Assembly (NCBI GenBank): GCA_012735435.1
Contig: JAAYHH010000086.1
Location: 1 to 48,262, forward strand
Length of the DNA: 48,262 bases
Reading direction: 5' to 3'
DNA from: Bacillota bacterium
GTDB taxonomy: Bacteria; Bacillota; Limnochordia; DTU087
Shown: positions 32,823 to 35,532 of the stretch, in pieces
Layout of the letters: every line of letters starts with the position of its first letter
How positions within the stretch are numbered: position 1 is the stretch's first letter
Notes under the pieces: model-generated
The model's database searches: none
Told to the model about the DNA's origin: nothing
The model's input: the letters and a program-made list of their open reading frames with translations, nothing else
Program-made: the position numbers and the translations under genes

Positions 32823-33674
32823 CTACACCGCCCCTTTCCGCAGCTTCCGTACCTTTCGGATCTCCTCTCCGTACTCCTGATAATCATCCACGGGAGATTC
32901 CAAGATGAAGGGGAGCTCACTCAGTACTGGATGATTAACCACTGCCTGAACACCCTCCATACCCAAGGCTCCTTCTCCAATCTTGGCATGGCGGTCAATA
33001 TTGCTGCCTAATCCTTGTTTGGAATCATTTAGATGCATCATCTTCATGCGTTCCAAACCAAGGAGAGCATCAAGTTCGTCCAAAAACCCATCGATCCCTT
33101 GGGTATTGGTTAGATCATAGCCCGCGGCCAGCAAATGGCAGCTGTCAAGGCAGATACCCATCTTCTCAGGCCAGTCTAACCGAAGGAAAATCTCCCGCAG
33201 TTCCTGCAAGTCTCTGCCTATTTCCGTCCCGTGGCCGGCCATGGTCTCCAGCAGCAAAATAGGTTTCTCTTCATGATACCGCTCAAAGACAAAGGTTAGA
33301 GCATCGACAATTCGGTCAATACCTGCGTCGACCCCATCACCCAGGTGACTGCCGGGATGCAGCACCAGAAAGTCCACATCGGCAGCGGAAAAACGCTCCA
33401 GGTCTGCCAGCAGGGTTTCTTTTCCGAACTCATGAATGTCCGGACGGTTTGTGGCCAGATTTATGGTATACGGCATGTGGCCGACAACACACTTGATGTC
33501 CTCCTGCAGCCGGCGCTGGCGAAACTCCTTTATCTCCTCCTCCCCAATGTGCCGGGCCCTTCCGCCCCTGGGATTTCGGGTAAAAAACTGAAAAGCATTG
33601 CCGTCAATGGATTTCGTTAGTTCCACTGCAGCCGGCATGCCCTTTGCAATAGTAAGATGAGCACCAATAATCAT
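32823..33674 (-). CDS. nfo: Endonuclease IV (apurinic/apyrimidinic endonuclease)
   Basis: 283 residues. Zinc-dependent TIM-barrel AP endonuclease of base-excision repair. Family signatures are present in order: IGAHLTIAKG, LHPGSHLGDG, LLETMAGHGTEIG, GICLDSCHLLAAGYDL, HLNDSKQGLGSNIDRHAKIG, and ESPVDDYQEYGEEI. The zinc-ligand His, Glu and Asp residues in these motifs are retained. The ATG start has GGAGG only four bases upstream, a short but usable spacing. In sporulating Bacillota an Nfo homologue helps repair spore DNA during germination, which fits the divergent spore-protein-like neighbour at 33.8 kb, but that link is inference. Confidence 0.95.
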   Translation of the reverse strand: MIIGAHLTIAKGMPAAVELTKSIDGNAFQFFTRNPRGGRARHIGEEEIKEFRQRRLQEDIKCVVGHMPYTINLATNRPDIHEFGKETLLADLERFSAADVDFLVLHPGSHLGDGVDAGIDRIVDALTFVFERYHEEKPILLLETMAGHGTEIGRDLQELREIFLRLDWPEKMGICLDSCHLLAAGYDLTNTQGIDGFLDELDALLGLERMKMMHLNDSKQGLGSNIDRHAKIGEGALGMEGVQAVVNHPVLSELPFILESPVDDYQEYGEEIRKVRKLRKGAV

Positions 33675-33713: not shown

Positions 33714-33743
33714 GTATTGTATTCCATTCTTACCGCAATACTA
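33714..33743 (+). promoter_or_regulatory. Possible forespore (sigma-G/F-like) promoter
   Basis: GTATT (33714-33718), 18 bases, AATACTA (33737-33743). This approximates the sigma-G pattern GnATA-N17/18-CATACTA and lies about 57 bases before the TTG start of the Gln-rich gene. A sigma-A reading using the overlapping TATACT (-35 TTGTAT, 19-base spacer) is also possible. Confidence 0.35.
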
Positions 33744-33799
33744 TACTTGGGCAAACCCCCATGAGCTCAAACACCGGGGTCAAAAGGAGGCGCCATCAC

Positions 33800-34159
33800 T
33801 TGGCCAAAAGGAAACGGGAACAGCAGAATCAGCAAAACCAGCAGGTCTCCCAGCAGGCTCGACAAGCACAGCAGAATCGACAGGCACAGCAGGCTCAGCA
33901 GGGAGGTCTGCAGCAGATACAGTATGAGTTTGCCCAGCAGCTGACCGCACCCCAGAGTCAGCAGAACCAGCAGCAGGTTGCGATGCAGGCTCAGCAGCAG
34001 GCCCGACAGGCTCAGCAAGCCCGACAGAAAGCCAAGCAGCAGGCCCAGTATGAGTTCAGTCAACAGTTGACTGGGGCTCAGAATCAGAAACAGCAGAATC
34101 AGCAGATAAGCCAGATGGCACAGCAGAAAGCACAGCAAAGACCGCAAAACCAGTCGTAA
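33800..34159 (+). CDS. Gln-rich repeat protein, candidate gamma-type small acid-soluble spore protein
   Basis: 119 residues, 53 of them glutamine, rich in Ala, Arg, Lys and Asn, with no Cys or Trp. Two copies of an otherwise rare motif, QYEFAQQLT (41-49) and QYEFSQQLT (83-91), are exactly 42 residues apart, each followed by a Gln/Asn-rich segment. B. subtilis SspE, the gamma-type spore protein, is built the same way: TEFASET repeats followed by NAQQVRKQNQQ-like stretches cut by the GPR protease for amino acids at germination. The start is TTG at 33800 with AAAAGGAGG nine bases upstream; an ATG at 33761 in frame has no ribosome site. CAG-type codons dominate. The family assignment is by composition and layout, not proven homology. 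Confidence 0.6.
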   Translation: MAKRKREQQNQQNQQVSQQARQAQQNRQAQQAQQGGLQQIQYEFAQQLTAPQSQQNQQQVAMQAQQQARQAQQARQKAKQQAQYEFSQQLTGAQNQKQQNQQISQMAQQKAQQRPQNQS

Positions 34160-34218
34160 CGAGCCTTGCACTAGAGATCTAAGCTAAGAACCCGAACTCG
34201 CAGGAATGGTATCTCGAG

Positions 34219-34248
34219 AGCCGGAGAGCCCTGGCTTGCTCTCCGGCT
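34219..34248 (+). terminator. Terminator hairpin after the Gln-rich gene
   Basis: AGCCGGAGAGC-CCTGGCTT-GCTCTCCGGCT, a perfect 11-bp stem with an eight-base loop, then GCCCCTTGTT. The T tract is weak but the stem is strong; it ends about 30 bases before the next plus-strand start. Confidence 0.65.
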
Positions 34249-34278: not shown

Positions 34279-35532
34279 ATGCTGGGAAAGAACCGATTCA
34301 ACCGACCTACGGACAACAAACTAAAACACTGCCGGGAATGGTTAGAAACCACACTGCTGGTCAAATCCGACGCCAAAACCTTAAGCTCGGCAGGGCTGCT
34401 GGCGGGAGAAATAATCCTTTGTTCCACCGCCGGCCTGTGGAGTGTCATAGCTTTACTTAACCTCCAGGGCCCACCGGCTCAACGCCTAGCCGCTGTCTTA
34501 AAGAGCATACTTCCGTGGTTTCCTCTACTGGCACTTTGCCTATTGCTTTCCCTAGCAGCCGCCCATATGGCTCAATGGGGTGAGCGCCGCTACGGTCGGG
34601 GCCGAATGGCTGCTGCCGCCGCATCGGTACCGATGGCACCGATTATCCTCGGCAGCCTCCTTACCCAGCCGCTGTTTGCGGCTGCACCTCTTCTTGCTCC
34701 CCTTGTCATCTGGGCAGCAGCAGAACTGTGGTGGCAAATTTTCCTCTACTTACTGCGGCGTTTGGCTGCCTTCGACTATTGGGCCCAACTGGAGCTGGAG
34801 AGCAAGAATACTGCATCAGATGCCTGCTATGACCTTAACTTCCACCGTGAGCACTTGGAAACCAAGAAAACCGCCCTCATGGAACGCAAGCTCCGTTGGA
34901 AGGCGATGGCTGATGACGAAAATCCCGAAAATCCTCAAGAGGGCCAGGCTGAAGCACTTAGCACCAACCAGGCCTTATCGCCTGCCCGGTCCGGAACCTG
35001 GCTTCGCCCTCAAGTCATAGTTCCCTTAGCAGTCTGCTGTCTTTTGGCTTTGAGCGGCATCCTCTCCCACCAGATGGACGGCAGAAAAGGCCAGGTGCCG
35101 GTCCCGGAAGCCGCCGCTGCTCTACCCATGGAACACCCGCGGGTTGTCTTCTGGTATCAAGCGGTGGAGCCTGAAGCCTCTTTGCTGCAGGATCTGATAA
35201 CCGCCTACAATGAAAGGATTGACGATCCGGTGACTACTCCCGCCGTTGTAGGTATTAATCAGAGGGGCGACATCGCCCTCGAGATTTTCCACGCCCAGCT
35301 GTCGGATAGCTGTCCTGATATTATGCTGCTGCCGACGGATTTGGCGCTGCAGCTCCACACCAGCTGGAACCCATCGGCCTTGGAATCTGAGTCTGCCGGT
35401 TACTGCCTTCCGCTCTGGCCTGATCGTCCCTGGCGGCAGCGGCTGGCACTAGTCATCTCTCCAAACACCCAATTTCCAAGGCAGGCACAGTCCTTTGCTG
35501 CATACCTCTTCGACCAGCTGAACAGAGATTGA
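34279..35532 (+). CDS. Polytopic membrane protein with a C-terminal truncated solute-binding-like module
   Basis: 417 residues; I do not recognise a named family. Four membrane helices in the first part (about 39-61, 76-97, 109-127, 131-158), a charged, partly helical cytosolic stretch (about 160-240), a fifth helix (246-263), then an outside C-terminal part. That part begins RVVFWYQAVEPEASLLQDLI and continues to CPDIMLLPTDLALQL (288-360), which looks like the first strand-helix units of family 1 sugar-binding proteins (vtfWh....e...l..li..fn to .PDv..l). The last 30 residues (LALVISPNTQFPRQAQSFAAYLFDQL) look like the end of such a protein, with the middle missing. The ATG has AGGAGG 14 bases upstream, which is long. 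It converges on etfA with a 15-base gap. Confidence 0.6.
   Translation: MLGKNRFNRPTDNKLKHCREWLETTLLVKSDAKTLSSAGLLAGEIILCSTAGLWSVIALLNLQGPPAQRLAAVLKSILPWFPLLALCLLLSLAAAHMAQWGERRYGRGRMAAAAASVPMAPIILGSLLTQPLFAAAPLLAPLVIWAAAELWWQIFLYLLRRLAAFDYWAQLELESKNTASDACYDLNFHREHLETKKTALMERKLRWKAMADDENPENPQEGQAEALSTNQALSPARSGTWLRPQVIVPLAVCCLLALSGILSHQMDGRKGQVPVPEAAAALPMEHPRVVFWYQAVEPEASLLQDLITAYNERIDDPVTTPAVVGINQRGDIALEIFHAQLSDSCPDIMLLPTDLALQLHTSWNPSALESESAGYCLPLWPDRPWRQRLALVISPNTQFPRQAQSFAAYLFDQLNRD

Follow-up and report, generated by a model that had tools for sequence, protein, structure and literature searches.

The 48 262 nt stretch of Bacillota DNA analysed here (the window) contains a small gene that raises the question of whether a counterpart of the gamma-type SASP, SspE, exists outside the Bacillales, where gamma-SASP are considered absent. 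A preliminary description had read its glutamine-rich product as a divergent gamma-type spore protein. Our study proposes, with a probability of roughly 0.7, that the product is a small spore protein specific to the forespore, which functions in the manner of a gamma-type SASP and acts as a glutamine store cleavable by the germination protease (GPR).

The coding sequence occupies positions 33800 to 34159 of the forward strand and specifies 119 amino acids from a TTG start codon which, as previously described, stands behind a strong ribosome-binding site (RBS), AAAAGGAGG, at 33782 to 33790 on the same strand, 9 nt upstream. Orthologues were found in 10 further genomes. An (A/G)AGGAGGC-type RBS was retained in 11 of 11 orthologues, as was a non-ATG start codon (TTG in ten and GTG in one), and the TTG was preferred over an in-frame ATG at 33761 because of this conservation. 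The ATG, which would give a product of 132 aa, is an improbable start codon, as the orthologues either lack it or carry stop codons there. The coupling of a conserved non-ATG start to a very strong RBS is itself a constant feature of the gene. In most pairs of orthologues within the genus, differences at third codon positions were approximately 2–4 times as frequent as those at first or second positions, with 11, 8 and 32 differences at positions 1, 2 and 3 in one example congener comparison, and the gene is therefore translated and under selection. The ORF is a real, conserved coding gene.

The translation confirmed a glutamine content of 45 % and two (Q)YEF(A/S)QQLT motifs placed 42 residues apart; alanine contributes 14 %, and Cys, Trp and His do not occur. 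Box 1, QYEFAQQLT, spans residues 41–49 (33920 to 33946, forward strand) and box 2, QYEFSQQLT, residues 83–91 (34046 to 34072, forward strand). Two QYEF words were seen in none of 20 000 composition-preserving shuffles of the protein, and residues 7–52 align with residues 53–97 as an internal repeat (z=9.0). The AlphaFold model, which had long helices at modest confidence, a pTM of 0.25 and a mean pLDDT of 65.5, predicts no stable fold.

Conservation of the gene was observed across the whole bacterial family, as a syntenic orthologue divergent to nfo was present in 11 of 11 family genomes, namely the genome of origin, four congeners and six representatives of five other genera. The nfo gene itself (32823 to 33674, reverse strand), encoding endonuclease IV (AP_endonuc_2; PF01261, 2.4e-44), is the divergent neighbour at every orthologous locus, and the downstream neighbour, encoding a 417-aa membrane protein (34279 to 35532, forward strand), is likewise conserved across the family. 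A Pfam scan assigned the 417-aa protein to no family, and membrane segments are present. A protein search of 61 genomes gave strong matches in the four congeners only, with identities of 84–87 % where the match was full length and 80 % over the shared part in congener G002. In two other genera, marginal matches turned out to represent short ORFs divergent to nfo and situated before the 417-aa protein gene, and the orthologues in the remaining family members were located by inspecting the DNA beside nfo. Across the 73 genomes of the class, a profile search detected the protein in the 11 family genomes and no others. A single-box profile search of a 398-genome phylum sample returned nothing convincing outside the family, no Q-rich relative being seen at its weak matches in G082 and G395, and a tblastn search of plasmids with the protein gave no match.

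Comparison across the genera revealed two forms of the protein. Orthologues in the five sister genera are basic proteins of 56–59 aa with 20–26 % Gln, an invariant basic N-terminus, MA(K/R)SKR, and one central box (QYEVGEPL, QYETGESL, QVEVSESM, QFEISEIL, QFEISEQL or QFELSESL). Those of the genus represented by the window have 116–121 aa, 40–45 % Gln and two boxes 42–44 residues apart, the spacing of 42 becoming 43–44 in three congeners. The exception is G002, in which the orthologue has 74 aa and a single box, as expected if most of the first unit had been lost in frame. A duplication within one genus, from an ancestral form that probably had one box and approximately 57 aa, is the simplest explanation of the two-box layout. 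This order of events is read from the distribution of the boxes across genera.

The boxes had been regarded simply as different from those of gamma-SASP, a view that needs revision, as they resemble the site at which GPR would cut the clade's own alpha/beta SASP. In the alpha/beta SASP of the same genomes this site reads (F/L)KYETANELGI, and the closest resemblance is that of QYETGESL, from one sister-genus locus (L013), to KYETANEL. With a matrix built from the clade's own alpha/beta SASP sites and p values obtained from shuffles, the box was the top-scoring window in 10 of 11 orthologues, the exception being G009. The p values ranged from 0.001 to 0.35, with five orthologues at 0.001–0.0035 (box 1 of the 119-aa protein, with its putative cut site YE/FAQ, was its best match at p=0.001), two at 0.01–0.02 and the rest not significant. 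Scores were poor for single-box orthologues in which S occupies the small-residue position (G006, G007 and G010; p 0.08–0.35). A GPR-type site of the form E, hydrophobic residue or Thr, small residue was present in all 11 (YEFA, YEFS, YEFG, YEVG, YETG, FEIS, FELS or VEVS), its small residue often being S or G in place of A, and the canonical (T/E)(F/I)A(S/T)E was not found in the box. The SASPs of C. difficile all carry an 'EIA' that is cut by GPR (PMC8452069). The box is a candidate cleavage site, the second in box 2 being equally putative, and its likeness to the clade's GPR site makes a functional analogy to SASP credible. Every family genome tested, including that of the window, carried alpha/beta SASP, GPR and sigma-G, the last scoring above the TIGR02850 cut-off; as far as the genomes can show, the orthologues are not restricted to non-sporulating species.

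A sigma-G-like promoter had also been suspected, and a forespore (sigma-F/G)-type promoter was found at 33714 to 33743 on the forward strand, its first base being that of the interval originally described. It consists of a −35 element, GTATT (33714 to 33718), an 18 nt spacer and a −10 element, AATACTA (33737 to 33743), and the pattern GTATDN18RATAMTA has this single match in the window against 0.03 expected. When the intergenic region between nfo and the gene was aligned for 11 genomes, CCAGTAT and ATANTA were invariant and held at a fixed distance, whereas spacer and flanks varied, which places the promoter among the most conserved intergenic parts. Alpha/beta SASP genes of the same genomes carry CAGCATA-N17/18-CAMACTA at the corresponding place, a −10 element from which that of the glutamine-rich gene differs, and in the promoter comparison GGGATAATA occurred in several genera.

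For a genome-wide view the two were merged into the pattern CAGYATDN18VAWAMTA, with the reversed pattern as control. This yielded 38 matches in the 11 genomes against 11 for the control, made up of 3 against 1 in the genome of the window and 35 against 10 in its ten relatives. The glutamine-rich gene (11), alpha/beta SASP genes (7), SspF-like SASP genes (3) and class A PBP genes (4) lie behind 25 of the 38. Among the other 13, one fell inside a relA-like gene and 12, a number close to the control expectation, lacked an evident start downstream or were uninspected. The matches at the glutamine-rich and alpha/beta SASP genes are partly circular, because the pattern was built from both, and those at the SspF-like SASP and PBP genes are the independent ones; within these, the PBP matches are weaker than the SspF-like group because the promoter lies very near the start codon. 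By this motif, common to SASP genes, the promoter of the glutamine-rich gene belongs to the forespore-type class.

The independent matches are also of interest in themselves. SspF-like minor SASPs stand behind the same promoter type at three loci (L099, L112 and L115; for example MANRSRLASERLKMEAAEE...). In four congeners, a conserved GTATA-N18-CATACTA promoter lies directly 5' of a class A PBP gene with transglycosylase and transpeptidase domains (L089 and L116–L118; G000:C190:1942-1973, G001:C188, G002:C147 and G003:C74). The forespore enzymes of B. subtilis include PbpF and PbpG (PMC9600426), and the position of a class A PBP gene behind this promoter suggests a forespore enzyme of the PbpF/PbpG kind.

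Taken together, the size class, the glutamine-rich body without a confident fold, the GPR-type box, the duplication of the unit and the promoter make it most likely that the protein works like a gamma-SASP. In such a scheme sigma-G or sigma-F polymerase would transcribe the gene in the forespore, and the disordered, basic, glutamine-rich product would be stored in the spore core. Upon germination GPR would cut at the (Y/F)E(F/V/T/I/L)(A/S/G) box or boxes, after which peptidases would liberate amino acids, glutamine among them, to support outgrowth. In the genus of the window, duplication and glutamine enrichment of the one-box unit of about 57 aa would have provided more storage and an extra cut site. 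Expression, spore location, cleavage and storage role are all predicted here from sequence.

A forespore protein with another job, such as a basic, helical, Gln/Arg/Lys-rich DNA or RNA binder or core packer that is not a GPR-degraded store, is an unlikely alternative. A net charge of +6 to +10 in all orthologues, the basic N-terminus of the sister-genus proteins and the helices predicted at modest confidence are in keeping with it, and the forespore-type promoter fits it equally well. However, the main conserved element other than glutamine is the GPR-site-like box rather than any DNA-binding motif, the tails vary freely in length and in the order of their charges, and binding would hardly account for the enrichment in glutamine to 40–45 % within a single genus.

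The protein might also be a true but highly diverged gamma-SASP, either inherited or acquired from the Bacillales, and the comparisons with that family leave this reading close to refuted. Its architecture, length class, richness in glutamine and duplication behaviour are those of SspE, yet the HMM comparison that the preliminary description had advised found no match to the gamma-SASP models PF04259 (Pfam) and TIGR01442 (NCBIfam) in any of the 11 orthologues. Both models recovered the positive control, B. subtilis SspE (the two matches validate the sequence used), and PF04259 also recovered a 54-aa single-box gamma-SASP. Genuine gamma-SASP, with TEFASE/TEFGSE-type boxes, were found in six genomes of the phylum sample, whereas TIGR01442 matched in none of the 73 class genomes. 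Smith–Waterman comparison with Bacillales gamma-SASP gave z scores mostly at composition level (−0.5 to 3.1, mostly 0–3), against 5–24 overall within families and 12–23 within gamma-SASP. Profile–profile alignment with hhalign gave a probability of 0.8 %, and no intermediates linking the two families were seen in the 398 phylum genomes. Of the original proposal, the SASP-like layout, the forespore-type promoter and a counterpart outside the Bacillales, in a spore-forming host, are supported and the homology is not; judged by sequence, the protein falls outside the gamma-SASP family.

Likeness and difference are best seen side by side. As in SspE, the protein is short and glutamine-rich, lacks Cys and Trp, consists of one or two units with a central GPR-type box, varies in unit count between species, and is encoded behind a forespore-type promoter in a spore-forming host; the single-box Bacillales gamma-SASP (54–72 aa) also share its length, central box and Q/K-rich tails. 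It differs in having no detectable homology, a box of the form (Y/F)E(F/V/T/I/L)(A/S/G)(Q/E)x(L/M) rather than TEFASET, a basic MA(K/R)SKR start, a TTG start codon and a lineage in which no PF04259 or TIGR01442 member was found. With alpha/beta SASP it shares the box likeness, the promoter class and the genomes, but it has a low-complexity, glutamine-rich body in place of the DNA-binding SASP domain (PF00269 matched 0 of 11 orthologues in the Pfam scan) and is unrelated outside the box. The minor SASPs of Bacilli are small forespore-made proteins, and the glutamine-rich protein is likewise small and predicted to be forespore-made. Pfam and NCBIfam scans of the 119-aa protein and the 11 orthologues gave nothing credible, including no match to SspH, SspI, Tlp, SspK, SspN, SspO or SspP. 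Most minor SASPs are narrowly distributed in Bacilli (PMC3533761).

The best reading of these data is that the protein has an origin separate from that of SspE, or one no longer recognizable, in a host lineage without gamma-SASP. An independently evolved equivalent, beginning as a single-box forespore protein that was later duplicated and enriched in glutamine in one genus to give a convergent amino-acid store, is somewhat better than an even prospect. Gamma-SASP have been reported as absent from any clostridial genome (PMC3533761 and PMC8452069), which nothing here contradicts for the family proper, and the authors of a C. difficile study speculate on which proteins take the amino-acid-reserve role (PMC8452069). 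In the present family, which lacks gamma-SASP, that role seems to be filled by the glutamine-rich protein.

It is scarcely credible that the gene specifies a low-complexity protein of vegetative cells or of the coat, or that it is a spurious CAG-rich ORF, for although CAG-rich DNA readily yields glutamine-rich repeats and its complement holds an antisense ORF of 134 aa (33767 to 34171), the third-position bias, the conserved RBS and start, the retention across six genera with just 20–26 % Gln in five of them and the promoter pattern common to SASP genes all speak against it.

If a non-homologous protein has indeed taken on the layout and promoter class of SspE together with a GPR-type box, the amino-acid reserve of the spore can be reinvented, and the GPR box rather than family membership becomes its defining handle. 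A search for short Q/K-rich proteins with a GPR-like box and a forespore promoter would then offer a recipe for finding spore proteins missed by profiles. An independent origin would mean that the amino-acid store of the spore has evolved convergently and would show the steps leading to it, for which the family provides a graded series of protein growth, with one box in five genera, two in one and a single box again in one species.

Three smaller observations concern the locus and its host. The hairpin GCCGGAGAGC-N8-GCTCTCCGGC, read from the sequence 3' of the gene (34220 to 34247, forward strand), is a possible terminator, with a weakly T-rich tail and no entry in the terminator scanner's list. 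A title in the reference list of PMC12029834 names B. subtilis YqfS, a homologue of the nfo product, as a spore protein, which is in keeping with the spore reading of the glutamine-rich gene. The host's own GPR (L045, G000:C119) matched Pfam Peptidase_A25 in two pieces (2–242 and 283–353) within one 432-codon frame, which suggests a lineage-specific insert.
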